From a virus: DNA of 48,793 nucleotides. The stretch is from the IMG/VR virus record IMGVR_UViG_3300021962_000174, positions 1 through 48,793 of that record; one strand, 5' to 3'. Each line of letters opens with the position of its first letter. The first letter of the stretch is position 1. A program made the translations under genes and the position numbers. A model generated the notes under the pieces. The model was not told the DNA's origin, made no database searches, and was given only the letters and a program-made list of their open reading frames with translations. Of the stretch, positions 1 through 31,570 are shown piece after piece.

Positions 1-2952
1 TGATGTTCCTGTGGCACCAGATGAACCAGATGTTCCCGGATTTCCTGTGGCACCAGATGAACCAGATGTTCCTGTGGCACCAGATGATCCTGATGTTCCT
101 GTATCTCCGGATGAACCAGATGTTCCTGTGGCACCAGATGAACCAGATGTTCCCGTGGCACCAGATGAACCAGATGTTCCTGTGGCACCAGATGAACCAG
201 ATGTTCCCGGATTTCCTGTGGCACCAGATGAACCAGATGTTCCTGTGGCACCAGATGATCCTGATGTTCCTGTGACACCAGATGAACCAGATGTTCCTGT
301 GGCACCAGATGAACCAGATGTTCCTGTGGCACCAGATGATCCTGATGTTCCTGTGGCACCAGATGATCCTGATGTTCCTGTGGCACCAGATGAACCAGAT
401 GTTCCTGTGGCACCAGATGATCCTGATGTTCCCGTGGCACCAGATGAACCAGATGTTCCTGTGGCACCAGATGATCCTGATGTTCCTGTGGCACCAGATG
501 AACCAGATGTTCCATTAGCTCCAGAAGTTCCTGATGAACCTGAAGTTCCATTGGCTCCAGAAGTTCCCGATGAACCGGCTGCAGAAAGCCAAGTTGATCC
601 ATTTGAACGGTATATGTTACTATCAGCCGTGTTGTAATAAATCCCACCAATAACAGCAGACGGACTTGCAGAATATCTAGGTATTTGTAATGATCCAGTC
701 AAATCCATAGAACCAGTTATTTGGTGACGGTCATCTAATGTGTTTCCTAATTTTGTTGATCCACTTTGAAATAAAATTGAAGCAGAAACAAATTCGGTGT
801 GATATTCTTCTGCAGTTAATCTACCAGTAATAACTGCATTACCTGTTACAGTAAGAGTTGAACCATCAAACGTTAAATTTGTTTCAGCTACCGCTGAATT
901 TACGGTTCCATCCGAAGTAAGTATTCTATTATCAGCTGCATTTGAAATTGTTGTAAATCCAGTTCCACTTGTTCCGGATGAACCAGATGTCCCACTACTA
1001 CCGTTAGCACCAGATGTTCCAGAACTTCCACTTGTTCCGCTGTTACCAGAAGTTCCTGATGAACCATTAGCGCCTGATGTTCCACTACTACCAGAAGTTC
1101 CTGATGAACCGTTAGCACCAGAAGTTCCTGAACTACCATTTGCACCAGAAGTTCCTGAACTACCATTTGCACCAGAAGTTCCTGATGATCCTGATGAACC
1201 GTTAGCTCCAGAAGTTCCTGAAGAACCATTAGCACCAGCTGTTCCAGAGGAACCCGAGCTACCATTTGCACCAGAAGTTCCTGATGATCCTGATGAACCG
1301 TTAGCTCCAGAAGTTCCTGAAGAACCATTAGCACCAGCTGTTCCAGAGGAACCCGAGCTACCATTTGCACCAGAAGTTCCTGATGATCCAGAAGTTCCAC
1401 TACTACCGGAAGTTCCCGATGATCCTGATGTGCCCGATGAACCGTTGGCACCAGATGTTCCACTACTTCCAGCAGTTCCGGATGTCCCACTTGTTCCAGA
1501 TGAAGCTGCGGTATAACTGGTTCCGTTTATTATCAGATTGCCAGATATATCAATAGATCCAGTAACACCGTATGATGCATTTAATTGTTTGGTGTTTATC
1601 CAGTTAGAACCATCATAATATAACAAATCGCCAGTTAATGGTGCAGGAACAACAACATTTGCCAAATCATCTAAATTTTGTAAAGCAGCACCACCGCCAC
1701 CAGCAGATGTTGTATTTCTAAATGTTCCGGCTTGAATAAATTTTGCATCATTTGTATTGGATAAATCAGTTGCATTACCCTTAACAATAATATATCCGAG
1801 AAAAATTGCCTGTGATAATGTATTTTGTATTTCTTCAAAGTCTTCAAATGCATAATTTTGAAGAGCAGTTGCAATAGAATTGTAAAGTTCTCTACCATAA
1901 TATACACCAAGTGAACCGGTTGAACCAGGAAAATAAAATGCCCTTTGAACTGTAACTGATCCACCAGGAACGGCAGATAATCCAGTTGGTGTAGAAGGTG
2001 TGTTGTAGTTACCAACATCAAGAACATTAGTTCCAGTTTGTGTTACAAATGATGATCCAGATTTATAGTATCTGAATAGTGTTGGTGCATTGTAAGCACC
2101 ATCAGTAATATATGAAGGTTTATTTGGATTATTTACATAGTTTCGACCTAATGCAAATGCCGTACCAGATGATCTATTTACTGATAATGATGAACCGCTT
2201 GCAGATAATGTATGGCCTCCAATTTTTATTGGACCAAATGAACGGATAAATTCATAGGTTTGTTGTGCAATAGCATATGATGGAACTGTAAATGTTCTTA
2301 CTTGATTTATATTAGTTCTATTTGGATGAACAATCGATCCAACTTGAATAATATAATCAAACTCGCCATTTGTTGGTGCAGTTACCGATTGTAACAAACT
2401 TCCTGAAGCATCTATGGTGAGCCAAGTTGTATCTGCAGTTGCTAAATTTGTTATCGATTGATTGGTAAAATTCGGCCAAGTAACATAGCTTATAGTTGGT
2501 ATAGGTTCTACATTCGGTGTTGCATTCATATTAACTATCAAACCTGATCCAGAACTTACACTAAAAGTTGTTCCACCAACAGAACCACTAACTATTCCAC
2601 CATAAAGAATACCGGTGTATAAATTTCCCTCTAACCAACGAAGACGAACAGTATTTGTATATGGTCCGTTGTATTGTGTAAAATACAAATCATTAGTTGA
2701 ACCACTTGTGTAGATGTATGAAGCAGACTTGTCTGTTGGTATTGTCAATCCTGAAACCGGTGACAATCCAAGATACCCAACTATGTCTTCACTTCCAGTA
2801 ATGAAAAGACTACCGGTAAGATATGTTTGACCAATTAGTGTATTTGATCCAGTTGTAAACAACGAACCAGAAACAATAATACCATTCGATGCAGTTACAG
2901 ATGAAAGATGTGCCCGACTTCCACTTACTATTATTTTTTTCCAATTAGACAA
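1..2952 (-). CDS. Collagen-like tail fibre protein, 3' end outside the window
   Basis: This is an open frame of 984 codons that runs off the left edge, so the C-terminus is missing. No in-frame ATG precedes the conserved N-terminus. I chose the TTG at 2952 because it is preceded by GGAG with 7 bases spacing and gives MSNWKKIIVSGS, which matches MATWKKLIVSGS of the gene at 8143-9417. Residues 1 to about 480 are globular and fibre-like. About 484-660 are Gly-X-Y repeats rich in Ser and Thr. About 660-790 form a second globular part carrying the motif LDDRHQITGS, also repeated in the gene at 9441-10982. From about 790 to the edge there is a second Gly-X-Y block built on a 27-base DNA repeat. Triplet-repeating glycine indicates a collagen-like trimeric stalk. 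The likely role is host-binding fibre; the receptor-binding tip is probably beyond the window. The upstream neighbour is a glycosyltransferase, 46 bases away. Confidence 0.85.
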   Translation of the reverse strand, partial: MSNWKKIIVSGSRAHLSSVTASNGIIVSGSLFTTGSNTLIGQTYLTGSLFITGSEDIVGYLGLSPVSGLTIPTDKSASYIYTSGSTNDLYFTQYNGPYTNTVRLRWLEGNLYTGILYGGIVSGSVGGTTFSVSSGSGLIVNMNATPNVEPIPTISYVTWPNFTNQSITNLATADTTWLTIDASGSLLQSVTAPTNGEFDYIIQVGSIVHPNRTNINQVRTFTVPSYAIAQQTYEFIRSFGPIKIGGHTLSASGSSLSVNRSSGTAFALGRNYVNNPNKPSYITDGAYNAPTLFRYYKSGSSFVTQTGTNVLDVGNYNTPSTPTGLSAVPGGSVTVQRAFYFPGSTGSLGVYYGRELYNSIATALQNYAFEDFEEIQNTLSQAIFLGYIIVKGNATDLSNTNDAKFIQAGTFRNTTSAGGGGAALQNLDDLANVVVPAPLTGDLLYYDGSNWINTKQLNASYGVTGSIDISGNLIINGTSYTAASSGTSGTSGTAGSSGTSGANGSSGTSGSSGTSGSSGTSGSSGTSGANGSSGSSGTAGANGSSGTSGANGSSGSSGTSGANGSSGSSGTAGANGSSGTSGANGSSGSSGTSGANGSSGTSGANGSSGTSGANGSSGTSGSSGTSGANGSSGTSGNSGTSGSSGTSGANGSSGTSGSSGTSGTGFTTISNAADNRILTSDGTVNSAVAETNLTFDGSTLTVTGNAVITGRLTAEEYHTEFVSASILFQSGSTKLGNTLDDRHQITGSMDLTGSLQIPRYSASPSAVIGGIYYNTADSNIYRSNGSTWLSAAGSSGTSGANGTSGSSGTSGANGTSGSSGATGTSGSSGATGTSGSSGATGTSGSSGATGTSGSSGATGTSGSSGATGTSGSSGATGTSGSSGATGTSGSSGVTGTSGSSGATGTSGSSGATGNPGTSGSSGATGTSGSSGATGTSGSSGATGTSGSSGDTGTSGSSGATGTSGSSGATGNPGTSGSSGATGTS
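2..505 (-). repeat. 27-base in-frame minisatellite inside the fibre gene
   Basis: Eighteen consecutive units fill exactly 504 bases: sixteen of 27 bases and two of 36 bases (29-64 and 200-235), which carry an extra 9-base insertion. Each 27-base unit encodes nine residues of the GTSGSSGAT type on the minus strand. Two alternating unit endings (gaacca and gatcct on the plus strand) give a higher-order pattern: the block starting at 29 resembles the block starting at 200, 171 bases apart. All unit sizes are multiples of 9, so gain or loss keeps both the reading frame and the Gly-X-Y phase. Confidence 0.95.
1162..1389 (-). repeat. Exact 99-base tandem duplication in the fibre gene
   Basis: Bases 1162-1260 are repeated identically at 1261-1359, and a partial third copy follows to about 1389. 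The unit encodes 33 residues of Gly-X-Y sequence, so the frame is kept. The identity of the copies contrasts with the diverged repeats around them, so this duplication is recent or is maintained by gene conversion. Confidence 0.93.
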
Positions 2953-2983
2953 CAGGAAACTCCATGATTTATATGAATACTGC

Positions 2984-2991
2984 TATAAATA
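2984..2991 (-). promoter_or_regulatory. Candidate promoter element TATTTATA upstream of the fibre gene
   Basis: On the transcribed (minus) strand the octamer TATTTATA lies 32 bases upstream of the TTG start at 2952, in the short gap after the glycosyltransferase stop. The same or a near-identical element occurs at similar distance before the starts at 9417, 10982 and 31525. It is the reverse complement of the T4 late -10 element TATAAATA, so a promoter role is only a suggestion. AT-rich DNA makes chance matches common. Confidence 0.28.
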
Positions 2992-2998
2992 TAAGATT

Positions 2999-5092
2999 TT
3001 ATAGTTTCAATAACTTTTCTACATGGGGTTTTACCATGTCAAATGTTATTGTTTTTGTGCACTCAAACTGTCTTTCAGTTCCCTTGTGTTCTGGACACCA
3101 ATTCCAATCTCCTCTATCAAAAAGGTGTTTAGCAAAACAACCATGGCATACATCTTCATTTATTATACGAACAACATCTGTTTTCATTTCATTAAATGGT
3201 TCCGAAAATCCACTAATCAATACCATAGGAACATTTAATGTCCAGGCATACCAACTCAATCCACTACCAATACCAACAAACATTTTTGAACCCTTTAATA
3301 TCGAACCAATTTCTTCCAATGATTTATTGTTTATTTTGATAACCCCTTCTGGCTGTTTGTTGCCCATGTACCCATCTTCTTCTTTTGATAACAAATAAAC
3401 ATCATATCCTTGTGATTTTACATAACCAACTAACTCTTGCCATCCAGTTGGATTGTTCCAATACTTTGCCTGAGCGGTTGAATGTATTGCTATACAGATA
3501 TATGGTTTATCGGATTTGTATACCGGTAGGTCTTTTACTTTTGGCTTTATTTCGGTGTATTCCAATCCAAGAATATCGGTAATAGTTTGTTGTAATGGTA
3601 TTTTATGTGTTTCATTTTTATTCATATTAAAATCATAACCGTTATCCATGTTAAAAAACCAACCTATTTTATACGAAGCATACAAATCTTTTATTATACC
3701 AACGTCATCTACAAAATTAATATCAGAATAAACATCTCTAAATAAATTATTGTGAAACGTAAAAACGTATAAATTACAATCATGTTTTTTCTTAAACTCT
3801 TGAACATATGGTATCCACGCAAAAGTGTCACCTATTGATTTTGAGTCAAAAAATATCAAAACATTTTTATCTTTTAAATTCATTACGTGTTCGATTGTTT
3901 TTCCATTTGGTTCAGTTACAACAATTTTCCAATTGGTAAACCATTTTCTATTTGGTTTTGCCCAACTATTATTTTTTATAGTTGTTTCATATAATGTTAC
4001 GTTTGTATCGGTATCTATAAATTTAATATCATACTGTATTGGTTGTTGTCCATTTATGGTTACACAACTACCGTCTGTAAACGATATGTTTACTGTATTT
4101 TCGTTTTTATTCTTTCTAACTTTTTCATAAACATGCAATACTGAACTTTTCATTGTTCTCTTCAAAATATCATCATAGATAAAATATAATTTAGATACTA
4201 CCGGTTTCCAATAAAATTTTTTAACACTATCTATTGTTTTATTTCTTTCTTCTGTGTAGTTTTCAATCACATACTGTATTTTTTTAACAACATCATCCAC
4301 ATCTCTTTTTACGGTTGTTGTGTGTAAATCACCAGAGCAATCAGTGGTTATTACGGGCAATCCAGAAGCAGCGGCTTCTAATATAGTTAAGGGTGGATGT
4401 CCAGCTTCAATACTTGTTGCATGAACCAATATACTATGGTTTTTATAGTTTTCTATCAACTCATCATCTGTTAAATCATATTTTACAGTAACATTTGAGC
4501 TTAATAATTCCGAATACTTATCAAAAAAATCTTTATTATTTTTTGTTGGACCTACTACTGTAATTGACATATTCAATTTTTTTGCAGCTTCAATTGCATA
4601 TACAAACCCTTTTCTATCAAAATTAGTATCGTGTATTAAACCATTGTTACCAACACACAGTAATTTTATAGGTTCACTTTGTATATTTTTGTAAAAATGA
4701 TCTACCCTAACGCCATGTTCTAAATAAACCGGAATACCATCAAAATATTCTATTAAATACTTTGCAGGAACTATTGCAGTTTCTGCCAATTTCATTGCTA
4801 ATAAATTATCTCGGTACAATTGTGTATCCTTACCCGCAAGATAAACATGATGATCATGACAAGTGTATACATATGGTATACCCATACTATACAATTCTAA
4901 TGCTTGATTCCAAGTATGTACATGAACTATATCATATTCACCCTTTTTTATTTCATTCATATATGGTATATCAACTTGATGTCCAAGTTTTTCAAGTTCT
5001 GTTTTATATTCCCAAATTATTTTTTCAACTGCACCCCAACCATTTGGTGGGATCGGAAGTAAACCTAAATGTATTTGTGCAATTTTCATCAT
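2999..5092 (-). CDS. GT4 glycosyltransferase fused to a TibC/BAHT-type O-heptosyltransferase
   Basis: The product has 697 residues. Residues 1-315 form a GT-B fold glycosyltransferase of family 4 type: it has an N-terminal Rossmann start (KIAQIHLG), a glycine loop (PPNGWGAVEK) and the donor-site segment TILEAAASGLPVITTD with Glu239. Residues about 330-408 form a beta-rich domain. Residues about 409-697 match the autotransporter strand-loop-strand O-heptosyltransferase family (TibC-like): LIFFDSKSIGDTFAWIPYV, then GIGSGLSWYAW and LISGFSEPFNE. A four-cysteine finger (Cys649, Cys652, Cys666, Cys678) fits the iron-binding motif known for TibC. Members of that family move heptose or another sugar onto Ser of adhesins. 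Two Met codons stand at the start; the second (5089) is better spaced from AAGG. The gene lies 10 bases behind another glycosyltransferase and directly before a Ser/Thr-rich fibre. That fibre is the inferred acceptor; the sugar donor is unknown. Confidence 0.88.
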   Translation of the reverse strand: MMKIAQIHLGLLPIPPNGWGAVEKIIWEYKTELEKLGHQVDIPYMNEIKKGEYDIVHVHTWNQALELYSMGIPYVYTCHDHHVYLAGKDTQLYRDNLLAMKLAETAIVPAKYLIEYFDGIPVYLEHGVRVDHFYKNIQSEPIKLLCVGNNGLIHDTNFDRKGFVYAIEAAKKLNMSITVVGPTKNNKDFFDKYSELLSSNVTVKYDLTDDELIENYKNHSILVHATSIEAGHPPLTILEAAASGLPVITTDCSGDLHTTTVKRDVDDVVKKIQYVIENYTEERNKTIDSVKKFYWKPVVSKLYFIYDDILKRTMKSSVLHVYEKVRKNKNENTVNISFTDGSCVTINGQQPIQYDIKFIDTDTNVTLYETTIKNNSWAKPNRKWFTNWKIVVTEPNGKTIEHVMNLKDKNVLIFFDSKSIGDTFAWIPYVQEFKKKHDCNLYVFTFHNNLFRDVYSDINFVDDVGIIKDLYASYKIGWFFNMDNGYDFNMNKNETHKIPLQQTITDILGLEYTEIKPKVKDLPVYKSDKPYICIAIHSTAQAKYWNNPTGWQELVGYVKSQGYDVYLLSKEEDGYMGNKQPEGVIKINNKSLEEIGSILKGSKMFVGIGSGLSWYAWTLNVPMVLISGFSEPFNEMKTDVVRIINEDVCHGCFAKHLFDRGDWNWCPEHKGTERQFECTKTITFDMVKPHVEKLLKL

Positions 5093-5101
5093 ATAACCTT
5101 T

Positions 5102-7132
5102 TTATTTAATTTCAAATAACCCTTGTTCTCGTATCTGTTCGATGTTTATGTTCTTAAATGCTTTAATTACACTATCGTCATTAAGTATTTTCAAAAATAT
5201 ATCATAGGTTTTATTTTCTTCACATTTAAAAAATTTTGTATCAGTAAATGTCTCGTTACTATCTATTGGTTTTTTGAAAGAGGGTATACGATGTTCTACT
5301 ATTAAATTATTCTGATAGTATACTTCCCATTTGTAGTCAAATGATAAATCATTCTGTGATTTGTAAAATAAAACAACATTATTTTCATCCTTTGAATTTT
5401 CAACCGGTAAAATTGCAGAATATTCAGTTTGACTGCTTGTAAAACTTTTTGTAGCAGTATTTTTTGTATAAGATGAATTAAAGAAATCTAATTCAGACAT
5501 ATTTTCAATTAAAATTTCATCCAAGTTATTTTTAAATACGTTGTAGTATAGATTTTCTAAACCATTTGATTCCGATTGATGTTTAATTACAAAATTTTCA
5601 TATTCATCTACCGAAATTATATTTTCCATTTTATCTAAATAAAATTTTGGTTTTGTAACAAAGAATACGGTTTTTAAACAATTTCCTTCCAATTCCTTTG
5701 TCATCAAGAAAAAGGCATTTTTGTTACTGTTTTTTAAACGTTCAACACATTCTATCAATTTTTTTGAGTCTATTTCGTCAAGTATTACGTCAAAATTCAT
5801 AAAAACAACATAGTCATATTTTAACATATTTGCCAAAGAAACACCTGCAAAAATATTTTGATGAACCGCTGAACCATGATAACCATTATTTTTACTTGGT
5901 CTTAATTTTACTAAAACTTTAGCATCATACATTTCCATCCACCATGTATCATAAAATGTATGTGTTGTTAAAACATTGTTTGAATCATAAAAATAATAAT
6001 CTACACAATCCATTATTCTTTTTTCTGCAGAATAATGATCTGCACATATAACAGGATAATTTGTATATTTTTTTATAGCATTTACACACTCGATTGTTTT
6101 ATCTTTTGTAAATTCACTTTTAGAATATGTTGAAATTGCAATAGCAACTTTTTTTTCATCAAAATAATTCTTTTGTAAATTCAATTTGTTTAATATCTTG
6201 TTCACATTATCATCTAAATCATTAAAATTCAAATAATCAATAATATCATATTTGTCATACATTCCCAAATAAACCGGCAAATTGTATATTAAAGATGGTA
6301 TGCTGTAACCGATTGCCTCTCTTATCACAAGTGGACTTGTTTCTTTATCATTATCATTTCCTCTCGAAGTAAATAAAAATAAATCCATACAAGAATAAAA
6401 TATATCAACATCACCACGCTCACCCCAAATTTTTACATTATCTGGTTTATCCTTTAATAATGGTTCCCAGTAAGTATAAAAATTATCTGCCTGATTTCCC
6501 AAAAAATGAAATTGAACTGGTTGGTCTAACATTTTTTTAGCATATTCAAAAATTTCTGCTTGATTTTTTCTTGGAGTAAAGAGACCAACGTTTAGAATAT
6601 GTTTTATATTTGGATCCAATCCTAACTTTTTTAAAGTTTCATTTCGGTTAGCACGTTCTTTATACTCAATATCATATTCTACAAGAGTTATTGGTATATT
6701 TAATTTTGAAAATTCTGCTCGTTGATATTCAGATATGAGAGCAAAATAATCTGGAAAAAATCTTTTTTGGGATGAATTAAATGACGAGTCATGCGATGTT
6801 TCGACTATTTTATATTTTCTATCAACTGAATATAAACTATCCGCAATATCATTTGACATGAAAAATTCTGGCATTTCTTGTAAATGAATGATGTCAGGAT
6901 TTATTTTATTTATTAAGCTAAACAGTTTTTGTTTATCATCATCCAAACAATGAAACTTATTACCCAATAATTCTTCTATTTGTTTTCTTTGAATAATAAA
7001 TGCAGGTGCTATCATTGAATACTCAATACAATAGACATCCACTTCATCTTTTATTTTTTTAATGAGGGATAATGTATATTGTGGTAGACCACCCGTTGAA
7101 AGATGTGGCACAATAAACAAAACTTTTTTCAC
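5102..7132 (-). CDS. Multidomain glycosyltransferase
   Basis: The product has 676 residues and starts with GTG (7132), preceded by AAGG with 7 bases spacing. Residues 1-320 look like a GT-B family 4 glycosyltransferase: VLFIVPHLSTGGLPQYTLSL at the N-terminus, NVGLFTPRKNQAEIF near 181-195, LFTSRGND near 253-260 and SPLVIREAIGYSIPSLIYN near 266-284. Residues about 328-530 look like a second transferase domain, with an ISTYSK start and a VVFMNFDVI segment that resembles the acidic metal/sugar-nucleotide site of GT-A enzymes. The last 120 or so residues look beta-rich and may bind sugar or acceptor. It ends 9 bases before the start of the TibC-like glycosyltransferase, so the two are probably co-translated and act in one modification pathway. 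Phage or host target and sugar are not shown by the sequence. The GT-A assignment is weaker than the GT-B assignment. Confidence 0.82.
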   Translation of the reverse strand: MKKVLFIVPHLSTGGLPQYTLSLIKKIKDEVDVYCIEYSMIAPAFIIQRKQIEELLGNKFHCLDDDKQKLFSLINKINPDIIHLQEMPEFFMSNDIADSLYSVDRKYKIVETSHDSSFNSSQKRFFPDYFALISEYQRAEFSKLNIPITLVEYDIEYKERANRNETLKKLGLDPNIKHILNVGLFTPRKNQAEIFEYAKKMLDQPVQFHFLGNQADNFYTYWEPLLKDKPDNVKIWGERGDVDIFYSCMDLFLFTSRGNDNDKETSPLVIREAIGYSIPSLIYNLPVYLGMYDKYDIIDYLNFNDLDDNVNKILNKLNLQKNYFDEKKVAIAISTYSKSEFTKDKTIECVNAIKKYTNYPVICADHYSAEKRIMDCVDYYFYDSNNVLTTHTFYDTWWMEMYDAKVLVKLRPSKNNGYHGSAVHQNIFAGVSLANMLKYDYVVFMNFDVILDEIDSKKLIECVERLKNSNKNAFFLMTKELEGNCLKTVFFVTKPKFYLDKMENIISVDEYENFVIKHQSESNGLENLYYNVFKNNLDEILIENMSELDFFNSSYTKNTATKSFTSSQTEYSAILPVENSKDENNVVLFYKSQNDLSFDYKWEVYYQNNLIVEHRIPSFKKPIDSNETFTDTKFFKCEENKTYDIFLKILNDDSVIKAFKNINIEQIREQGLFEIK

Positions 7133-7159: not shown

Positions 7160-7903
7160 CTATAACCCAAATTCCGATTTATCGAAATTGTAATTTTGTA
7201 GGACTTCTGCCGAAGTTAAACTTCGATTGTAACAATATACTTTAGCAATTCTACCGTTAAGAAGATTTCCAACACCAAATGATGCAATGTTTGTAGAATT
7301 ATTACCGGTATGGGCAGTTTTTTGTGCAGTATATGTGCTGTCTTGTGCACCATTGATATACAAAACCATACCATCACTTGTATTAAATGTTAGCGTTGCA
7401 TTATACCATGTGCTTAAACTAATTGTTGCAGTTGATGGATAAACCGTATAACTTGCCCAATTGGCATGACCACAATATAATTTAGTTCCACCGGCCATAA
7501 ACATAAAATGTCCACCCGTTGCAGAACTAACTAAATTATTATCGGCATAACCATTCAAATAAAACCAAACTGATTTTGTGTATGTTGTTGTTGTTAAAAC
7601 AGCACCACTACCAGTTCCTCTTTGTGTTGATCCATTAAATGTAAAATATGACGGTGTTCCTGAAGTATATGTTGGGGAGTTTACAAGAGTGATATTTTGT
7701 TCAGTTCCTGCAATATCTGTCCAAGTTGTTCCACTTCCACCGTAAGATGTAGCATTTCCTGCATCCAATCTTAATGTAAGACCATCTGTGACGAGGGTTG
7801 ATGCTTCTGTCTGTGATTGTGTTAAACTAAAACCACCCGTATTAGTGTTTTTACTAAAAGTTAATCCACCATTACCACCACTATTTGATAGTGTCAAACT
7901 CAT
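7160..7903 (-). CDS. LamG/concanavalin-like lectin-fold structural protein
   Basis: The product has 247 residues. Residues 1-35 are a low-complexity lead rich in Gly, Ser and Thr. Residues about 36-240 fit the LamG-type jelly roll used by sugar-binding and decorating proteins: LTLRLDAGNATSY, then TKSVWFYLNGY, STWYNATLTFN, MVLYINGAQDS and the closing strand GRIAKVYCYNRSLTSAEVLQ. Phage proteins of this kind are usually fibre tips, capsid decorations or glycan-binding tail parts. The ATG overlaps the stop of the preceding small gene by 4 bases (ATGA), which suggests translational coupling. Its place between fibre genes and glycosyltransferases suggests an accessory fibre or decoration, but which virion part carries it is inference. 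Confidence 0.75.
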   Translation of the reverse strand: MSLTLSNSGGNGGLTFSKNTNTGGFSLTQSQTEASTLVTDGLTLRLDAGNATSYGGSGTTWTDIAGTEQNITLVNSPTYTSGTPSYFTFNGSTQRGTGSGAVLTTTTYTKSVWFYLNGYADNNLVSSATGGHFMFMAGGTKLYCGHANWASYTVYPSTATISLSTWYNATLTFNTSDGMVLYINGAQDSTYTAQKTAHTGNNSTNIASFGVGNLLNGRIAKVYCYNRSLTSAEVLQNYNFDKSEFGL

Positions 7904-8142: not shown

Positions 8143-9417
8143 TTATGACCAAATCCAAATATCACCGGTATCGGTTTGAACACCTACTGTTCCATATCCA
8201 GTTGCACCGCCGTATTGTGGTTGAGCGGGTTGATTACCGGTTGTCCATTGTTGTATTACACCCATGTAAGCATCAGGAACTATGGATGTTGGTGTATTTT
8301 GAGTTGGATCGAGATTGTTTTGAAGTGCCCAACGGTCTGCACTGGCATCAACACCAAGCGCATATCCAGTTGAAGCGGCCTGTTGAACAACGATACCACC
8401 ATCTGTATTGGTATCCGATCCGGATGCAAACAATGCCCACTTATCTTCAACTGTGACGGTTGTTGTATCTAATACAGTATTTGTTCCATTTACAACCAAG
8501 TCTCCAGTAACAACAAGTTTATTATTTACAGTTGTTGTTGATGCACCACCACCTATATTAACAGCAGTTGCACCAGTTGTACCAACATTAATAGTTGTTG
8601 CATTTGTTGTGGCAATGTTAAATGTTCCGGCAGTTGTTGTAATGTCACCACCATTAACATTGAGGTCACCTGTTAAAGTTACATCAACAAATTGTGGACT
8701 ATCTCCTGTTTGAAGACCAGTATCAACATCTGTGTTCACACCATTGATTGTTGCACGAACTGTGCCTTGTGATGGTGAACTGAACGATGAACCACTAACT
8801 GTTCCAGTTGGAAGAGCAGATACAACACCAGTTGTAAATGTTTGTGAAGCAGTATCAAGTGTAATGTTTGGTGTGCTTCCTTCACCACTTGTTGCAGATG
8901 ATACAAGAGCACCAGATGCAGATACAGTAGCAACATAATTACCAGTTGTGTCTGTTCCAAGAGCAACAGAATTAGCTTGTATTGTTGCAACGCCAGTTGA
9001 TGCATCTACAAGAATATCACCACTTATTCCTGCATAAGACGATGAATTGAAAAATGTTTGTAATGAACCAGAATTAACAGAAAGACTATCGGTTCCTTCT
9101 ACTGATAAACCACTACCAGCAAGGTCTGTTAATAAGTTACCGTATGTTGTAAATGAGTTTGTTCCATTACTTGTGAAAAATTTATCTGTATTTGATAAAT
9201 TTGTAATTTCATTAGTTGGAAATGTTGCAGTTGCAGTAACATTTGTTAATCCAGTACCATCACCAGTAAATGAACCCGAAAAAGAACCTGATAGTCGGGT
9301 ATTGGCTACTGATGGTTGTATTTGTTGGTTAGAACCGACTAGTATACCACTTGATGCGGTTACCGCCGATAATTCAGCTGAACTGCCCGATACTATAAGT
9401 TTTTTCCACGTTGCCAT
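8143..9417 (-). CDS. Repeat-rich tail fibre/adhesin protein
   Basis: The product has 424 residues and an ATG start with GGAG 8 bases upstream. It begins MATWKKLIVSGSSAELSAVT, the same N-terminal signature as the long fibre at 1-2952, so this segment is probably a shared attachment domain. The body is beta-rich and full of Ser, Thr, Gly and Asn, with segments such as FTGDGTGLTNV and LTGDLNVNGGDITTTAGTFN that resemble the head-to-tail strands of phage fibres and of intramolecular-chaperone fibres. The C-terminus (about 325-424) is richer in Trp and more globular: EDKWALFASGS, then DRWALQNNLDP and a final TGDIWIWS. That makes it a candidate tip. No enzyme motif is visible. It lies downstream of another repeat fibre, in line with a set of alternative or stacked fibre parts. 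Confidence 0.75.
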   Translation of the reverse strand: MATWKKLIVSGSSAELSAVTASSGILVGSNQQIQPSVANTRLSGSFSGSFTGDGTGLTNVTATATFPTNEITNLSNTDKFFTSNGTNSFTTYGNLLTDLAGSGLSVEGTDSLSVNSGSLQTFFNSSSYAGISGDILVDASTGVATIQANSVALGTDTTGNYVATVSASGALVSSATSGEGSTPNITLDTASQTFTTGVVSALPTGTVSGSSFSSPSQGTVRATINGVNTDVDTGLQTGDSPQFVDVTLTGDLNVNGGDITTTAGTFNIATTNATTINVGTTGATAVNIGGGASTTTVNNKLVVTGDLVVNGTNTVLDTTTVTVEDKWALFASGSDTNTDGGIVVQQAASTGYALGVDASADRWALQNNLDPTQNTPTSIVPDAYMGVIQQWTTGNQPAQPQYGGATGYGTVGVQTDTGDIWIWS

Positions 9418-11048: not shown

Positions 11049-14000
11049 TTATCCTAATACAATTACAGTAAACTCCAAAACAGTGGGTATATTAGCAAAT
11101 ACTAATTCTATATTATCGTTATCTGTATGTGTTGCTGTATAAGGTTCAGTTGCATTTCCAGGATAAAAAATTTCCTCATTTCCACCATTTTCACGAATAC
11201 ATACCATTACATTTTTAGTACCAAATGCATGATTTATTGCAAACGTATCATCTACACCATTGCCAATTGAAACAGTGTATTTTGAAAATGATACTCCACT
11301 TGTTCCATTATTGCCAGAAGAACCAGATGTTCCCGGCGTTCCTGGATTACCCATTCCTCCTGATGAACCCGATGAACCAGATGTACCCGATGTCCCAAAT
11401 GTTTGACCAGAAGAACCAGCAGTACCATTTTGACCAGATGATCCAGATGTTCCTGTTGTACCTGAAGTTCCAGATGTACCCCTTGATCCAGAAGAACCCG
11501 CAGTTCCAGATGTACCATTAGTTCCAGATGTTCCAGAAGTTCCAGCAGTTCCAGATGTTCCAGCAGTTCCATTTAAACCGTTTTGTCCATTTGATCCAGA
11601 TGTTCCATTAGTTCCTGAAATTCCCGATGATCCAGAAGATCCATCGGATCCGGAAGAACCGGAAGTTCCAGCATCACCTTTTATTCCAGAAGATCCCGAA
11701 GAACCTGTAGATCCCGAAGAACCCGTAGATCCTGAAGAACCGGCATCTCCTGTCCTTGCAAACGATACTATTATAGAATCTCCTGATGAAAATGTACCTG
11801 ATCCAACAACATGACTTACGACTAATTTTGTATATCCAATTCCACTTAAATTATTTGATGTTATATTAAAAACTACAAATGTAGATGAATCGTATTCTTT
11901 AAATATACGAATAGTACCCTTTACAGAAGTTGTAGAGTCATCCAAAGCAGCAATCCATGTAGATGCAATATTTGTTCCACTAAAATTTAAGTCATCTATA
12001 AAAATTCTATCAACACTGCTGTATGTTGTATTATTGAATTTTAAATTTCCATTTAGAGGATCAGTATCGTCTGTATTTGTATTAAATACAAATTTTTGAC
12101 TGTTACCCCCAAATAGTCCAGATGATCCAGCAGTTCCAGAAGATCCTGATGAACCAGATGTTCCAGATGAACCAGATGATCCGGTTGTTCCAGATGATCC
12201 AGATGTACCATTATTTCCCGAAGATCCTGATGTTCCGGGAAGACCAGTATCACCTTTTCCTCCTGAACTACCAGATGATCCGTCTGATCCGGATGACCCG
12301 GATGTTCCGTGTGAACCAGCTGTTCCAGATGTACCGTGTGAACCAGCTGTTCCAGATGAACCAGATGTTCCACCTGTTCCAGATGATCCCGATGTTCCAG
12401 ATGAACCAGATGAACCAGATGTACCAAATGTCCCGTCAGTTCCAGATGAACCAGATGATCCACCAGTTCCAGATGAACCAGATGATCCCGTTGAACCAGA
12501 TGTACCATTTGTTCCAGACGTTCCGGTTGTACCATTAGTTCCAGATCTTCCACTTGATCCAGAACTTCCATTTTCACCAGATGATCCAGAGGAACCATCG
12601 GATCCAGAAGAGCCGGAAGTTCCACCTGTTCCAGATGTGCCAGATAATCCAGATGTGCCAGATGATCCAGATGTGCCAGATGATCCAGATGTGCCAAATG
12701 TCCCATCGGTTCCCGATGAACCGGCTGTTCCACTTGTTCCGTTTACTCCAGATATTCCAGAACTGCCAGAAGTTCCATTAATTCCAGATGTACCAGATGT
12801 ACCAGATGTACCGTCTCTTCCACTTGTTCCAGAACTCCCATTTTCACCAGAAGATCCTGATGATCCGGATGATCCATTTTGACCAGATGTTCCACTGGTT
12901 CCAGATGATCCAGCAGTTCCAGATGTACCGGATGATCCAGATGTTCCCGCATCACCGGTATCTCCTTTTATACCAGATGTTCCAGCAGTTCCAGATGTAC
13001 CGGATGAACCGGATGATCCAGATGAACCATCAAATCCAGAAGTTCCAGATGTTCCATATGTTTCACCTGAAGTTCCAGCAGTTCCAGAACTTGCTGATGT
13101 TCCTGAAGTTCCTGCATTTCCAGTGTCACCTTGTGCACCATTTGTTCCAGATGTACCATTTTGTCCGTTTGTTCCAGATGTACCATTTGTTCCGGATGAA
13201 CCAGATGTACCAGATGTGCCAGATGATCCAGATGATCCAGCAGTTCCTGAAGTTCCAGCTGTACCAGTTATTCCAGCTAAAGATATTTCCCATAATGAAT
13301 ATGTACCACTACCAACACTTCCATCTATATTAACTACAAGTTGACCGTTTCCACTATTATATGAAGTAACTACACCGGACATTCTATTATTAGAATCATA
13401 TGCAATCATAATAACTTGACCGGTGATGTAAGACAATCCAGTTTCTACTGTAAATGTTTTTGATCCAGTTCCAATTGTATTAGTAGTAGTTGATGACGTA
13501 CTGTATTTATCGCCAGAAAATCCAGATGATCCTGTACTTCCACTTGATCCAGAAGTTCCTGATGTCCCATTAGTTCCAGATGTTCCATTAGTTCCTGAAG
13601 TTCCCGATGATCCAGAGGATCCAGAAGATCCAGAAGATCCTGATGTTCCTGATGATGCACTTGATCCAGATGATCCAGCAGTTCCAGATGATCCAGTAGT
13701 TCCAGATGTGCCAGATGTACCGGTGGTTCCAGATGTACCGGTAGTTCCAGATGTTCCATATGTTTCACCTGAAGATCCAGCAGTTCCAGTAGTTCCAGAT
13801 GTACCGGTAGTTCCAGATGTTCCAGATGTACCGGTGGTTCCAGATGTACCCGATGATCCACTGGATCCAGCAGTTCCTGAAGTTCCAAATGTGCCGTCTG
13901 ATCCTGATGAACCAGAAGATCCTGATGAACCAGAAGATCCTGAAGTTCCAGAACTTCCACCACTTCCTGATGTTCCATATGTTTCACCTGAAGTCCCAGC

Positions 14001-16322
14001 AGTCCCTCCTGAACCAGTAGAACCTTGTTCTCCTGAACTTCCGCTTGATCCAGATGTACCGTTTGTTCCAGATGTTCCATATGTTTCACCAGATGAACCA
14101 GAAGATCCTGATGAACCAGAAGATCCTGATGAACCAGAAGATCCTGATGAACCAGAAGATCCAGAAGTTCCACCGGAACCAGCTGTTCCGGATTGACCTG
14201 ATGATCCATCGGTACCAGATGAACCCGATGTTCCACCTGAACCAGCTGTTCCTGATTGACCAGATGAACCGTCAGAACCAGAAGATCCAGATGAACCATC
14301 TGATCCAGAAGAACCATTTGAACCATTGGCACCAGCTGCACCAGGAGCTCCTTGAGCTCCAGAAGTTCCTCCGGTTCCAGATGAACCATTGGCACCAGGA
14401 GAACCACTAAGTCCAGATGTTCCATTTGAACCATTTGAACCGGTAATAGCGCCAGCTGCGTTATGGGCATATGAAGCAGTAATTGCATATCCAGATGTTC
14501 CAGCAACGGAACCTGTTAAACTTCCATTAAATTGACCGCTAAATGATCCAGTAAATCTACCACCATTGATTGTAGTATCACTTCCTGCAGCATATAAGTT
14601 ACCGCCAACAAATGGTATTCCAGTTTTAATAAAACTTCTATCTGCAGGATTTGATTTGAAATCAAAAAATTCAAATTTAAAATCTAGGTATTCATTGCGA
14701 TGAACATTTTTTATTGGAACATATAAAGTAGTATTACTCGGAGAAAACCCTAAATCTAATTTTTCTTTGATAGATACATCAGATATTGCAGCTTTGTCTC
14801 GCATCAAAAATTTTAATATACCATTACCGCCAAAATTTGGTACTATTGAAATAGAATGATTAAATACAACAGCTCCATTTGTATTTGCAGTTGGAACTTC
14901 TCCCAAATATTTACCATAAGGTGTATTATTTACAAAAGCACTACCAGAAATATAAACTGCAATTTTTTGTGCTCTTGTATCCTGTACTGGTGTTCCCAAA
15001 AAGTAATTAAATGAAAGATTGTAAACAGAGTTTGCAACAAATTTTGTTGCATAACTGGATGTTTGAACGAGCAGATGGTCTTGATTACCAGAAAGAGTAT
15101 ATCCAGTTGAAGGAACTATTTGTATTCCATTTGGAATAAATTGTGAACTTGTTACTTTTGTACCACCAGGAGCACCATTTATGGCCTCAACTTTCCAATA
15201 ATTTACAGGATCAATTGATGATGTGGTTGTTGATCCTGAAACTGTTAGAGTTATTTTGTCATCAAAAATACCTAAAGGATTTTCAATTAAGTTATTATTT
15301 GATTCTACTAATATGTTTTTTGGATAAACCTCACCATCATATGCTAATTCAAATTCACTTGATGGTCTAAATGAACTTTTTGTGTGAACTTTTACTCTGG
15401 TTACTTTTCCAGTATCTACATCTAAATTTGTAATGTCTATTTTAGCGTATGGTTTAAGATTTTCCGTTATTATTCTTTGTTTAGAACTTTCATTATATTC
15501 AATCACATACTGTTGTTGTTGGATTGATGTAACTGGTTTTAATAATCCTCTATCTCTTCCTGATGATGCGGTTACAAACATTCTGTCTGCAAGGGTTAAT
15601 CTTGCTGGAGCACGAAATGACGTAACAGAAGTTTTAAATGGTTGATCACCGTATGCTCGTGATCCAGATGGAAATACTAATTTTGATAAAAATGGAAAAG
15701 TTACAGTTCCACCTTTCATTTCAGGTTTAAATAAATTTTTACCGTCAATTAATGAAACAGAATCTGCATTATATGAATAAGATCCAGTCCCTCCCAATTT
15801 TTTTAATTTACTAGCATCAAATTTTTCTTCAATTACATAAGAAGAAATTTCAGAAATATCAAACGTAGGTGTTCTTGTAAATATGATCTTCGAGTCATTT
15901 TTTTCAAAAGAATTTAAGTTCATTCTATGAATATACTTAAAATTTCTAGAAACTACTTCATTTCTTGGAAGACTTTTTAATGATAAATCGTGGGATGCAG
16001 TTCCTACAAATATGATACTAATTTCCCCAATAACATTTATATCATATATGTATATTGATAGTATTCTAGATCCGTCAACATCCAATTTATTTGTGCTTTC
16101 ATAATAAATTGTTCTGCCAGTATTAGAAATAATATCAATTTCTATTGGAAAATTTGAAGATAGGTATTTAAAATTTGGCTTGTATGTGAAGTAATTTTTG
16201 CCAGATTTTATTAAAGTTTGTTTTGCAGTTACATTGATAAAATTTGGAGAGTTTAAAGTTTTGTCTTCAAACCTTGTACGCACTCTACCTAAATTTTTAC
16301 TTTGTAATTCTCGCCTTATCAT
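11049..16322 (-). CDS. Giant collagen-like tail fibre protein
   Basis: The product has 1757 residues, with ATG preceded by GAGAG. Residues 1 to about 625 are a non-repetitive, beta-rich N-terminal region that ends in short GSF/GSL strands (about 595-615), probably the baseplate-proximal attachment. Three Gly-X-Y blocks follow (about 628-935, 1016-1400 and 1522-1675), made almost only of Gly, Ser, Thr and some Ala, Asn, Asp. They are separated by two globular inserts (about 937-1016 and 1402-1522) that have strand-rich sequences such as [20 protein letters not shown]-terminal globular domain (about 1677-1757) contains [20 protein letters not shown] and may nucleate trimer formation or bind the host. 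Collagen-like Gly-X-Y tracts are known in phage fibres as trimeric stalks. The lack of proline in the repeats means stability would have to come from other features, possibly Thr/Ser glycosylation by the transferases at 2999-7132 (inference). Confidence 0.87.
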
Positions 16323-16333: not shown

Positions 16334-19300
16334 TTATGTCTCTATTTTAGAAAATCCATTTTCTTTTTTAATCTCAATATGATTATCAACCATGTCACGA
16401 ACACTATCTATATGTGATATAAGTATCACGAACTCAAATTGTGTTTTCAAATACTCCATGAACAGAGAGAAGTTTGCCATTACCGTTGGATCGAGAACAC
16501 CCAATCCCTCGTCTATTGCAATAAAGTTTGGTCTTGGTAAAGACGAAACTTGTATCAATGCTGTTCTTATTGCAAGTGATGAAATAAACTTTTCCATTCC
16601 ACTTGACAATTCCAAATTCCAAAAACGGTCATTATCATATACAATGTATGTATTGATACTCTTACCGTCTGTATCAAACAAAACTTGAAAATCTACAATG
16701 TTTGCCAATATATTATTAGTTTCCTCTTGAATACTTGGCAAAGCATTACTTATCAATTCATACGGAACACCGTTTCTGTTTACTGCTTTCAAATAATAAT
16801 CGTATGCTTCATATTCTTTTTCAAGGTCTTTCAACTTTTGTATAGATACCTCACATTCGTCTATTACTTTCTCACTAACCTTTACATTACCACTATACTC
16901 TAAAATGTTTTCATCAATTTTTTTCAATTCAAATTTTGATAGAGTATTCTTTTCATTTTCTAATTTATCAATTTCTGATTGAATTTTATTATTTTGATTG
17001 ATGGCATCTTCATTTTCTTTATACTTTTCAATCTGATTATCTATGTTACCAATTTCATCTTCTATTTTTTTCTGTTCTTCTTTTGCAGAAAATATCTGTT
17101 TTTCTATCGAATATATTTGTTTCTCATATTTGAAAGCACTATTTTCAATAGAATGTAATTTTTCCAATTCAGAGTAAACGAATGAATTTTTTGTAAATTC
17201 ATCATTCAAATCATTCAATTCAAAATTTAATTCATCTCTGTCTTGTTCAAATCCCCAAATTTGTGATTTTGCTCTTTCTGCATCCTTAACAAAAACATTA
17301 TTTACACAGAACTCACAGTTTGGATCATACTCATGGTCTTTCAAATTATCAATTTTATCTTGACAATGTTGGACTTTTAACTTTACACTACGCAAATCAG
17401 CTTCAAGTTCTGTTATTCTGTTCCTAACAATATCAATTCTTTCTTTACTTTTCATAAGAGTTTCTTTATCAAACTCTTTTGCCAATCCAATATACTTTGT
17501 GTGTGATGTCTTAGCATCATCTAATTCATCTTCCAATGACTTTATTTCATTCGATAAATCATTACTCTTTCTATCTAATAAATATCTCTTATCCAATAAT
17601 GATTGGACAGATTTGGAAGAAAAATTGTCTGCAATCGGTATTAGTTTTTTATTTAATTCCGAAATAGAAACGGTTAATTTTTCAATTTTTTTCTCAATAT
17701 AACCCTTCTGGTCAGTTGTTTCTTCCAAAAGTATCGTATTTGATTTATGACTACCCATTGCATCGGACAACTTCGTAGAGTAATCATGTTTCTTAAATTC
17801 TTTTACTAATGCCTGCAATCCCTTTACTTCATCAGTAGCAATACTATTTAGTTCCTCGAATAGATTTAAGTCAAAGAATTGTGCTAATAAATCCTTCCTA
17901 TCCTTTTGTGCCTTGTCTACAAAGTTTGTATTATTACCTTGCAGTGACATTGCAGTTAGGACAAAATCATCATAGTTCCCAATATACTTCCGTATGGCGT
18001 AATTAGTTCCGTCACGGTCTTCGCCATTAAGTGATACCAAGTCACCGTTTTCTTCATACCAAAAATCTACATTAACTTTTACATTACCCTTCTTTTCTTT
18101 TGTAGCAACTCTCTTTATGTAAAAGTTTTTTTCACCAATCATAAAATGCAGTTTACATTGAAAGTTATCTTTCTTATTGTTCAAAACTTGTGCCGCTTTG
18201 AATGTCCTTGAACACTTATCGAAAAGACAGAACATAATTGCATCAAGAACAGAAGACTTACCACTTGCATTTGGTGCGAACAATCCATATATGCCATTCA
18301 TTCCATCAAATTGTATTCTATTTCCCTTTCCATATGAAAACATATTTTCAAATTCAAATGAAATTGGTTTCCATACAAGATTACGAACTACATCACTTTC
18401 GGATAATTTTGTATTTACATTTCTGTTAATACCTCTAATCTTTTCAAGTATGTCATCTGTTACTCCAAACTTATCGTTTACATAATCAGTAATCAATTTG
18501 TTTTGATATTCTACATCACGAATTTTACCAATAGGATTTACTTTTGTTTGAACATTACCATTGCTTGAACCAACAAGGTGTTGTGTTCTAATATCTATCA
18601 CATTTGTCAATGACTTTAATTCAGTCATTATTTGATTGACTTCTGAATGTGGTGTGTTTGATATACGCAAACGAATTGAATTATACTTTGTCCACTTTGT
18701 TGGCAATTTTTTAATTTTACCGTTTTCAACATCAATTGTATGATAAGACCAATCATTTTCAATCTCTATGAATTTTGATTTCTTATTTTTAATGTCCCAC
18801 TCAATAATGCCATGAACTAACCCCTCACCATAATTTTGTTGTATGAGTGAACCGGCATAAGCAAACTTTCCATCAACATCAAGGTATTGAAACTTATGAA
18901 TATCTCCAAACATCCCATAGTCAAAACCATCGAACATTTCAATCTTAACATCATTGTGTTTCATAAGAACGCCCGCATCAGTTGATGCCCTATCAACAGG
19001 TCCGTGATACAATACTATTTTTGTTCTATCACCTTGAACATTATTTGCTAAAATAAAGTCTTTTGGATTTTCATAAACAGAATTGAGAACAAAATCAACA
19101 TTCTCCAATGAGTATACACCGCTTTGTTTTAGATAAAATAATTCATTCATTTCACCATTTATCAACGAAACAATCGGTGAAAGTGCATCCATTCTACTCA
19201 TATTATTTAAGTTACAATCGTGATTACCAGCAATCAAAATAGTTGGTGCAATCTTGGAAAGAGTGTCAAGAAATTCTGTTACCATATCAACAAGTTCTGG

Positions 19301-19513
19301 TGTCATGTCTGTTTTAGCATGAACAATATCACCGGCAAGATATATTATAGTATTTTTATTTTCTTCTACTTTACTTTTACAAATATCATAAAGTTTTTGA
19401 AATACGCTGCGATATTCTTCATGTCTTTTCAGATTACGAATGTGAACATCAGCAATATGTAATATGGTATCAACACGGGAAAGTCCGCCTGCCCATAATG
19501 TTTCTTTAAGCAT
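16334..19513 (-). CDS. Mre11-Rad50 (SbcD-SbcC, gp47-gp46) fusion nuclease/ATPase
   Basis: One polypeptide of 1059 residues carries both halves of the recombination nuclease. The N-terminus is an Mre11/SbcD metallophosphatase: DVH (22-24), GD (61-62), GNHD (96-99) and a later GDIH. From about 385 an SbcC/Rad50 ATPase begins, with Walker A APNASGKSS (about 412-420), long coiled coils (about 590-940), a zinc-hook CEFC (about 733-736), signature LSSGMEK (about 969) and Walker B FIAIDEGLGVLD (about 996-1007). T4 and most bacteria encode the two proteins separately. The complex processes double-strand ends for recombination-dependent replication and host DNA breakdown. The start overlaps the primase stop by 8 bases, with AGAGG 7 bases upstream. 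All key residues are present, so the enzyme is probably active. The frame is continuous, with no sign of a stop between the halves. Confidence 0.95.
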   Translation of the reverse strand: MLKETLWAGGLSRVDTILHIADVHIRNLKRHEEYRSVFQKLYDICKSKVEENKNTIIYLAGDIVHAKTDMTPELVDMVTEFLDTLSKIAPTILIAGNHDCNLNNMSRMDALSPIVSLINGEMNELFYLKQSGVYSLENVDFVLNSVYENPKDFILANNVQGDRTKIVLYHGPVDRASTDAGVLMKHNDVKIEMFDGFDYGMFGDIHKFQYLDVDGKFAYAGSLIQQNYGEGLVHGIIEWDIKNKKSKFIEIENDWSYHTIDVENGKIKKLPTKWTKYNSIRLRISNTPHSEVNQIMTELKSLTNVIDIRTQHLVGSSNGNVQTKVNPIGKIRDVEYQNKLITDYVNDKFGVTDDILEKIRGINRNVNTKLSESDVVRNLVWKPISFEFENMFSYGKGNRIQFDGMNGIYGLFAPNASGKSSVLDAIMFCLFDKCSRTFKAAQVLNNKKDNFQCKLHFMIGEKNFYIKRVATKEKKGNVKVNVDFWYEENGDLVSLNGEDRDGTNYAIRKYIGNYDDFVLTAMSLQGNNTNFVDKAQKDRKDLLAQFFDLNLFEELNSIATDEVKGLQALVKEFKKHDYSTKLSDAMGSHKSNTILLEETTDQKGYIEKKIEKLTVSISELNKKLIPIADNFSSKSVQSLLDKRYLLDRKSNDLSNEIKSLEDELDDAKTSHTKYIGLAKEFDKETLMKSKERIDIVRNRITELEADLRSVKLKVQHCQDKIDNLKDHEYDPNCEFCVNNVFVKDAERAKSQIWGFEQDRDELNFELNDLNDEFTKNSFVYSELEKLHSIENSAFKYEKQIYSIEKQIFSAKEEQKKIEDEIGNIDNQIEKYKENEDAINQNNKIQSEIDKLENEKNTLSKFELKKIDENILEYSGNVKVSEKVIDECEVSIQKLKDLEKEYEAYDYYLKAVNRNGVPYELISNALPSIQEETNNILANIVDFQVLFDTDGKSINTYIVYDNDRFWNLELSSGMEKFISSLAIRTALIQVSSLPRPNFIAIDEGLGVLDPTVMANFSLFMEYLKTQFEFVILISHIDSVRDMVDNHIEIKKENGFSKIET

Positions 19514-25742: not shown

Positions 25743-25759
25743 AATTTCACTTTATATTA

Positions 25760-28606: not shown

Positions 28607-28620
28607 TTAAATAACTCTTA

Positions 28621-29706
28621 TTAGTAGTCTAACTTAATTTTAAAAATTGATTCGTGATCAAATGTGTTTTTTATTGGTTGACTTAATTTAGCAACAGCAA
28701 GTAAATTTTCATCATCATCATATAAACCAATTGTTGTAATAAATGTTTCTGGATTACCAGCGGTTCCCATTGATGGACCCATCGTTGGATGTTTTAATTG
28801 ACCATAATTAGCAGTGTTTCCTGCATAAAAACTTGGATTATTACTATAATTGTATTCATTCCAACGGACTCTTGCAAAATAATATAGAGAGGAAATTACT
28901 TCATTTGTTCTACCTTGAAATGAATATCCTTTTGACATTGCACCACTTATTGAAGTAACTAATCTTTTATGATTAAATTCACCACTTCCTGTGTCAGGTG
29001 TTCTCATTGTTCCAAATGATGCAGAAACATCAAGTGCCATACCATTCAATACAAATATACCATTATCTGGATAAAATAAACCCCAAGGAGTTTTATCATC
29101 AGCATAAATACCATCTCCAATAGTACCACTTACTATATTATATGTTCTTCCACCAAGACCGTTCAATTCGGTTGTTGTTCCTGAAGAATCATCTATAAGG
29201 GTTATTAAACTTGCCGTTGGATTTACTGATCCCGTATGATCTAATGCAGCTATTGTTAATTGCCAATTTGCAGTATCAATTCTATCTTTAAATCTAGCAG
29301 TATTTACATTTATGACATATATGTAATTGGAAGTTTGTTCGGTTGGTTCACCATCCAAAAAAGTAAATTTATCTATACCAACCGGTAACAATAATTGTGC
29401 ATATTGAGAATAATTTGTTTTTGTTGGTCTAATATAAAGATCAGTTCCAAATGATCCGGTTGATGATCCACTTGAATCATAGTCACCGTATATTATAGAA
29501 AATTGACTCTCTGCACCTTCAATGTTTGACTGACTGTTAAACATTTCATAATAATATTCTTGCTGACTTATATTTTGAGTAGAACTGGTGTGTATTACTG
29601 TTAATGCAGCTTGATTATTAGACCAAAGTGGAGCAGTTACTACTTCTCTTTGATCAGGGTGAATGTCTGTATCTTCATTAAATGTTTTGTAGATATAATT
29701 TTGCAT
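28621..29706 (-). CDS. Structural protein consisting of the shared module
   Basis: The product has 361 residues, almost all of it the module that ends the two larger genes that follow. Visible landmarks are APLWSNNQAAL, QEYYYEMFNSQ, FSIIYGDYDSSGSS, IYVINVNTARFKDRIDTANW, LFYPDNGIFVLNGMALD, YNYSNNPSFYAG and ITTIGLYDDDENLLAVAKLS. The IYGDYDSSGSS segment replaces the AYGHV.GSGS of its paralogues. It lies 14 bases before the next gene and 17 bases after the previous one, all four reading in the same direction, so the array is probably one translation unit. Since this form has almost no N-terminal extension, it may show the basic fold. I know no biochemical function for the family beyond presence in marine-type myovirus structural regions. 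Confidence 0.75.
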   Translation of the reverse strand: MQNYIYKTFNEDTDIHPDQREVVTAPLWSNNQAALTVIHTSSTQNISQQEYYYEMFNSQSNIEGAESQFSIIYGDYDSSGSSTGSFGTDLYIRPTKTNYSQYAQLLLPVGIDKFTFLDGEPTEQTSNYIYVINVNTARFKDRIDTANWQLTIAALDHTGSVNPTASLITLIDDSSGTTTELNGLGGRTYNIVSGTIGDGIYADDKTPWGLFYPDNGIFVLNGMALDVSASFGTMRTPDTGSGEFNHKRLVTSISGAMSKGYSFQGRTNEVISSLYYFARVRWNEYNYSNNPSFYAGNTANYGQLKHPTMGPSMGTAGNPETFITTIGLYDDDENLLAVAKLSQPIKNTFDHESIFKIKLDY

Positions 29707-29723
29707 AACTTAATACTCTTATT

Positions 29724-30836: not shown

Positions 30837-30883
30837 AGCTATATCCTAATTAAATTCATAAAACAAATTATCAAAATAATACA

Positions 30884-31525: not shown

Positions 31526-31562
31526 TGTTATACTCCTTTTTAAAACTAAACATTTTTACTAC

Positions 31563-31570
31563 TATAAATA
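31563..31570 (-). promoter_or_regulatory. Candidate promoter element TATTTATA before 31525
   Basis: On the minus strand TATTTATA lies 38 bases upstream of the ATG at 31525, in the 91-base gap that is the longest in the window. It is preceded by the inverted repeat at 31595-31621, so the gap looks like a terminator-plus-promoter junction. The assignment is tentative. Confidence 0.32.

Follow-up and report, generated by a model that had tools for sequence, protein, structure and literature searches.

A putative phage O-glycosylation cassette with a TibC-like enzyme and serine/threonine-rich collagen-like fibres as its probable acceptors

Two adjacent glycosyltransferase genes on the minus strand of a 48,793-nucleotide virus fragment (IMG/VR record IMGVR_UViG_3300021962_000174, positions 1 to 48,793; hereafter the window) probably form, at a likelihood that we put at roughly 0.8, a late-expressed cassette with which the phage would O-glycosylate its own serine/threonine-rich, proline-free Gly-X-Y fibres, the first sugar most likely being heptose. 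This reading of the genes, which encode proteins of 697 (2999-5092) and 676 residues (5102-7132), builds on the class of the first enzyme, its intact active site, the co-operonic arrangement of the pair and the recurring association of the enzyme with one kind of candidate acceptor. That the phage glycosylates its own fibres had been proposed in a preliminary description of the window, and the proposal gains support from an enzyme-fibre pairing that recurs in many phages unrelated to one another, in searches started from the fibre and in bacterial genomes.

The 697-residue protein (ATG start) is a fusion of a GT4-type glycosyltransferase (residues 1-312; PF00534, 2.3e-11) and a TibC-like protein O-heptosyltransferase domain (residues 328-697; PF01075, 2.4e-8), the latter encoded at 3002-4111 on the minus strand as judged by aligning it with TibC and 64 relatives from phages. 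The domain matches TIGR04414, the family of TibC/AAH protein O-heptosyltransferases, over model positions 6-373 of 374 with 292.1 bits (E=5.7e-87; curated cut-off, 200 bits), and a search of the Protein Data Bank (PDB) matched TibC (4rap, E=1.8e-59). An AlphaFold2 (AF2) model of the single chain (mean predicted local distance difference test score, 88) superposes on TibC 4rap/4rb4 with template modelling scores typically of 0.85-0.87 and up to 0.88 (root-mean-square deviation about 2.3 Å), and displays the predicted beta-barrel, GT-B catalytic domain and iron-finger region of the TibC fold. TibC Asp110, Thr226, Lys230 and Trp305 align with the catalytic Asp422 and with Thr539, Lys543 and Trp614, and the four iron-finger cysteines are kept (Cys649, 652, 666 and 678). 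Asp110, Lys230, Trp305 and the four cysteines are conserved in 64 of 64 phage relatives, Thr226 in 63. In TibC, the catalytic Asp, the donor residues and the iron-finger cysteines were shown or proposed to be necessary (Yao et al. 2014, PMC4358343). By sequence and predicted fold, the C-terminal part of the protein is a complete TibC-type domain of the BAHT family.

The 676-residue protein (5102-7132, minus strand, GTG start) comprises a GT4 domain (residues 1-320; PF00534, 3.9e-9), a second alpha/beta domain (approximately residues 330-550) and a poorly predicted tail. A Foldseek search with its AF2 model returned the GT4 enzymes BshA and HepE as best matches, together with SdgB and GtfA; a family search with the C-terminal half, which varies among relatives, gave no match. 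Across 50 distinct viral loci encoding a TibC-like domain, the GT4 domain of this protein is specified by a separate gene of the fetched locus in 28, mostly no more than five genes away, and is fused with the TibC-like domain into one polypeptide in ten, so that 38 of the 50 carry it fused or in the same locus. FkbM methyltransferases are among the other domains fused to or neighbouring the TibC-like domain, which looks like a constant starter accompanied by variable finishers. In relatives, a 2OG-Fe(II) oxygenase domain (PF13640) was found in two neighbours of the enzyme; collagen prolyl hydroxylases belong to the same class. Only nine bases separate the two open reading frames (ORFs) of the window and, because this gap contains a ribosome-site-like AAAAGG run, their co-translation is plausible. 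Comparison with a 76%-identical relative indicates purifying selection on both proteins, with dN/dS of about 0.14/0.88 for the TibC-like domain, 0.19/0.94 for the GT4 domain of the 697-residue protein and 0.09/0.75 for the 676-residue protein.

The probable acceptors are encoded in the same region. A collagen-like fibre gene (1-2952, minus strand, TTG start) begins 47 bp downstream of the 697-residue ORF and is cut at its C-terminus by the window edge; its product matches the Pfam Collagen family (1.8e-51) and PHROG tail fibre families, and its Gly-X-Y tracts (958-1497 and 1-576), consisting mainly of GSS and GTS triplets, hold 124 triplets with 193 Ser/Thr residues and 2 Pro. The other candidate, a 1757-residue protein matching PHROG tail fibre families (11049-16322, minus strand), begins about 3.9 kb from the gene pair and carries 279 triplets with 418 Ser/Thr residues and 5 Pro in its tracts, Ser or Thr occupying 82% of X and 68% of Y positions. 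Much of what the preliminary description had said of this region stands, namely the coordinates and lengths of the two ORFs, the hundreds of Ser/Thr residues in proline-poor stalks and the TibC/BAHT-type domain, whose TIGR04414 match is far stronger than could then be known. Its placement of the pair between Gly-X-Y fibres holds on the downstream side only: the direct upstream neighbours are a probable virion surface protein of the same gene string with a LamG/concanavalin A-like domain (7160-7903, minus strand; PF13385, 2.6e-15; PHROG virion structural protein, 1.3e-15) and a fibre whose sequence is devoid of Gly-X-Y repeats (8143-9417, minus strand). The latter shares with the 1-2952 fibre an N-terminal WKKxIVSGS motif that is likely to be a common virion anchor.

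The association of enzyme and fibre is not peculiar to the window. Starting from the enzyme, 32 of the 50 distinct viral loci were found to contain, in the fetched flanks, a Gly-X-Y ORF with Ser and Thr at 61-98% of X/Y positions and almost no Pro; in 11 of the 50, such an ORF starts 31-115 bp downstream of the enzyme on the same strand. Collagen-like ORFs were Ser/Thr-rich in 73 of 74 cases in the fibre-bearing enzyme loci as opposed to 0 of 93 in Pro-collagen control loci, a comparison set that was chosen by a Pro-rich query and comes largely from other phages. Starting from the fibre, with locus sets made of the best 80 matches and including related records that are not independent of each other, 16 of 80 loci had the enzyme within ±10 kb, compared to 0 of 80 Pro-collagen loci (p=1.3e-5) and 0 of 75 protease control loci. 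Over whole records the enzyme was found in 27 of 79, versus 5 of 50 chosen by the protease, and in 8 of the 11 fibre records of at least 100 kb. The 50 protease-chosen records, which belong to the phage group of the window, include eight with fibres (at least 20 pattern hits) and five with the enzyme, four having both (p=0.0014). Where long records hold both genes, the two lie no more than 15 kb apart in 8 of 12, versus 2.65 expected.

Relatives of the TibC-like domain were detected by our search in only 4 of 50,697 annotated phage records, two of them of 735 kb, one of 636 kb and the fourth that of the isolate Microcystis phage Mel-JY01, in which the gene is annotated as 'methyltransferase FkbM'. 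A genome of 735 kb was the largest reported for a phage in 2020 (PMC7162821). In the Mel-JY01 locus (L003, PP395634.1), a large Ser/Thr-collagen ORF at 2-3052 on the plus strand is largely unannotated and is overlain by antisense annotated ORFs (1-651 and 739-2298, minus strand) that probably reflect misannotation of repeat DNA.

The pairing extends to bacteria. Relatives on genome contigs were retrieved with an alignment as query, the same search with a single protein yielding no match; four of the 14 loci from the genome collection (three viral-looking, one divergent) were excluded before the pattern run, leaving ten bacterial genomes (2.6-9.2 Mb), each of which encodes a single full-length relative. 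Each genome has one to three sites that match a strict Gly-[Ser/Thr]-[Ser/Thr] repeat pattern; nine of the ten have such a site no more than 6 kb from that single enzyme gene (eight of them no more than 1.2 kb), the expectation being 0.05 genomes. Among the partners are ORFs of Methylobacter, Methylomicrobium and Polaromonas for putative secreted proteins or lipoproteins that bear (GTS)n or (GSS)n tracts, and what remains constant from locus to locus is the Gly-Ser/Thr tract itself, carried by otherwise unrelated proteins. The bacterial result removes the objection that glycosyltransferases and fibres occur together in phages merely because both are housed in a single host-recognition region. 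The search for the genes beside collagen-like fibres in relatives that the preliminary description had suggested has found the pairing from either starting point and in bacterial genomes, and the related phages, in which an occurrence of the gene pair mostly away from fibre genes had been named as grounds for rejection, have the enzyme co-located with Ser/Thr-rich collagen-like genes. Stand-alone TibC-like genes adjoin (GTS)n/(GSS)n ORFs at L245 (11139-11447), L246 (11211-11912), L251 (11288-11914) and L242 (8935-9798), and a bacterial TibC-like gene with its repeat ORF apparently constitutes an unnamed glycoprotein module. TibC-like relatives are also found on E. coli and Salmonella plasmids.

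As to the first sugar, HldE-like and HldD-like genes stand directly behind the TibC-like gene in several phage relatives (L050, 11484-12986; L051, 5711-8060; L056, with L057, 7409-8546; L060, 11149-11538). Their products have as best matches TIGR02198 (heptose-7-phosphate kinase; 115-122 bits, against 46-52 for the next distinct family), TIGR02199 (heptose-1-phosphate adenylyltransferase; 100-109 bits, against 60-74 for the next) and TIGR02197 (ADP-heptose epimerase; 191 bits, against 34 for the next distinct family). TIGR02199 alone is unspecific, with matches in 11 of 14 control genomes, and the count was therefore restricted to genes that adjoin the enzyme and whose identity was checked by name. 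Two other candidates for heptose synthesis were rejected: the Mel-JY01 'cytidylyltransferase' gene, which has no family match, and the terminase-like 608-residue ORFs of L061 and L063. The GmhA-type SIS_2 family was found in only 2 of 47 of these phages. In some relatives, the heptose synthesis genes are accompanied by genes for a small cupin and an APS-kinase-like protein.

A number of observations weigh against heptosylation of the fibres. The fetched flanks of 18 of the 50 viral loci showed no Ser/Thr-rich fibre, although in at least seven of these the sequence stops no more than 1 kb from the enzyme, and of the 12 long records holding both genes, four have them separated by more than 15 kb. 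The heptose-pathway neighbours, although best matches, all fall below the NCBI equivalog cut-offs, and no heptose synthesis gene was recognized in the window, where the host would consequently have to supply ADP-heptose. TibC Arg286, which contacts the adenine of ADP, is replaced by Ile595 in the window enzyme and is an Arg in only 4 of the 64 phage relatives; it is present in TibC and in the Paraburkholderia and Neokomagataea enzymes used as bacterial yardsticks, and its loss occurs in bacterial relatives too. With this residue changed, the donor has to be read from neighbouring genes and, because HldE-like and HldD-like genes adjoin the enzyme in relatives, ADP-heptose is most likely the donor despite the loss of Arg286. 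The known acceptors of BAHT enzymes, finally, are beta-helical autotransporters rather than Gly-X-Y tracts (PMC4358343).

Some of these points would fit fibres whose glycans begin with another sugar, either since the TibC-like domain has changed its donor or since a GT4 domain starts the chain with a UDP-sugar. GT4 enzymes do initiate glycans with UDP-sugars on Ser-rich or Ser-Asp repeat adhesins, and the model of the 676-residue protein matches SdgB and GtfA among GT4 folds; the adenine-reading Arg is missing here and in 60 of 64 relatives, and TIGR02199 gave no match in the 735-kb, 636-kb and Mel-JY01 records. We nevertheless regard this as unlikely in view of the heptose-pathway genes directly behind the enzyme in several relatives and of the bacterial enzymes that have lost the same Arg. 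It is clearly less probable that the true acceptor is a virion neighbour without collagen repeats (the 8143-9417 fibre or the LamG protein) and that the Gly-X-Y fibres merely share a host-recognition region with the enzyme: a non-collagen fibre is found nearby both in the window and in Mel-JY01, and BAHT enzymes are known to act on beta-helical autotransporter repeats (PMC4358343), but the bacterial loci share a Gly-Ser/Thr tract on otherwise unrelated proteins and the enzyme is absent within ±10 kb of all 80 Pro-type collagen fibre loci.

Modification of the host surface, at the lipopolysaccharide (LPS) core or O-chain, so as to block superinfection is the published interpretation of pelagimyophage glycosyltransferases, which are often near fibres and are accompanied by rfaE among LPS-related genes (PMC7029224), and PF01075 does relate the window domain to LPS heptosyltransferases. 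Its by far best match, however, is a protein O-heptosyltransferase with an iron finger, not an LPS heptosyltransferase, the gene sits among virion genes, and the Gly-Ser/Thr pairing persists in bacterial genomes, outside phage clusters, making an LPS target improbable as well, if marginally less so than a non-collagen acceptor. Glycosylation of modified bases of the phage DNA by the GT4 proteins as a protection against restriction, a role commonly proposed for phage glycosyltransferases in work cited in PMC12619734 and PMC10202952, seems very unlikely: the TibC-like domain has the architecture of a protein glycosyltransferase, the gene order links the pair with fibres and, among the family matches of the window, none to a base-modification gene was noticed.

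The proposed glycosylation of the phage's own collagen-like fibres by a BAHT-type enzyme has close relatives among described systems. The TibC/AAH enzymes (TIGR04414; PMC4358343) share with it full-length homology, the predicted fold, the catalytic Asp, the Lys and Trp donor residues and the four-Cys iron finger; unlike them, the enzyme described here is phage-borne, is fused to GT4 or other domains, has mostly lost the adenine-reading Arg and is partnered by a Gly-Ser/Thr repeat protein rather than an autotransporter. No autotransporter family is among those listed for the scanned neighbours and, in a midpoint-rooted tree, TibC falls with L336 and L337 on a separate long branch, the phage enzyme lying outside the autotransporter clade. 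On account of the tree, Arg286 and the partner gene, we file it as a variant of the BAHT family. The GT4-fold enzymes GtfA and SdgB, which the GT4 part of the 676-residue model resembles, hyperglycosylate Ser-rich repeat and Ser-Asp repeat surface proteins, respectively; we know of no TibC-like domain or collagen-like acceptor in these systems. Freeman et al. (2023, as cited in PMC12619734 and PMC10877033) reported that mycobacteriophage enzymes glycosylate virion proteins, with capsid and tail tube as the targets. The glycosyltransferases are phage-encoded in both cases; here the enzyme is TibC-like and the presumed targets are collagen-like fibres. While virion glycosylation by phages is thus already known, what appears to be new is the class of the enzyme, its presumed acceptor and how widely the system occurs, and no paper linking collagen-like proteins with TibC-like heptosyltransferases was found in the open-access literature.

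The recognizable genes of the window are all on the minus strand and include a head maturation protease, baseplate wedge proteins and DNA enzymes, followed by the terminal run of fibre genes. Adjoining the second collagen-like fibre gene, 16334-19513 (minus strand) encodes an SbcD-like phosphoesterase fused to an SbcC-like ATPase (1059 residues; PF00149 at 16-207, SMC_N from 388). Long ORFs of up to 1454 residues at 22809-35717 and 40229-46396 (minus strand), among the structural genes, have no PHROG match, and those scanned also have no Pfam match.

We propose that late in infection, in the cytoplasm and before virion assembly, the TibC-like domain would place a first sugar, most likely heptose, on Ser/Thr of Gly-[Ser/Thr]-[Ser/Thr] units, using ADP-heptose made by the host or, in some relatives, by the phage itself. 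Extension of the glycan with other sugars would then fall to the fused GT4 domain and to the GT4 protein encoded next to it, and the modified fibres would be built into the virion. The proline-free stalks may be stiffened or stabilized in this way, and/or the fibres shielded by their glycans. The helix-stabilizing benefit is suggested by analogy with the cuticle collagen of the worm Riftia, in which glycosylated Thr, not hydroxyproline, occupies stabilizing Gly-X-Y helix positions (Mann et al. 1996, as cited in PMC11766948), a mechanistic precedent only since that is an animal protein modified by a different enzyme. More tentatively, and with somewhat less than even confidence, 'collagen-type' relatives of TibC may form a widespread module of phages, including one with a 735-kb genome, and bacteria that heptosylates Gly-[Ser/Thr]-[Ser/Thr] repeats, sugar-bearing Ser/Thr replacing proline/hydroxyproline in holding proline-free triple helices together to give the phages glycosylated collagen stalks.

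Glycosyltransferases that phages encode near their fibres are usually taken to act on host LPS or to counter restriction; one large class of them would more likely decorate the phage's own fibres. This offers a testable answer to the question of how stalks with several hundred Gly-Ser/Thr residues and almost no proline are kept stable, would bring viruses and a new acceptor into a protein-heptosylation family known from adhesins, and may provide a compact enzyme set for producing glycosylated collagen-like polymers.

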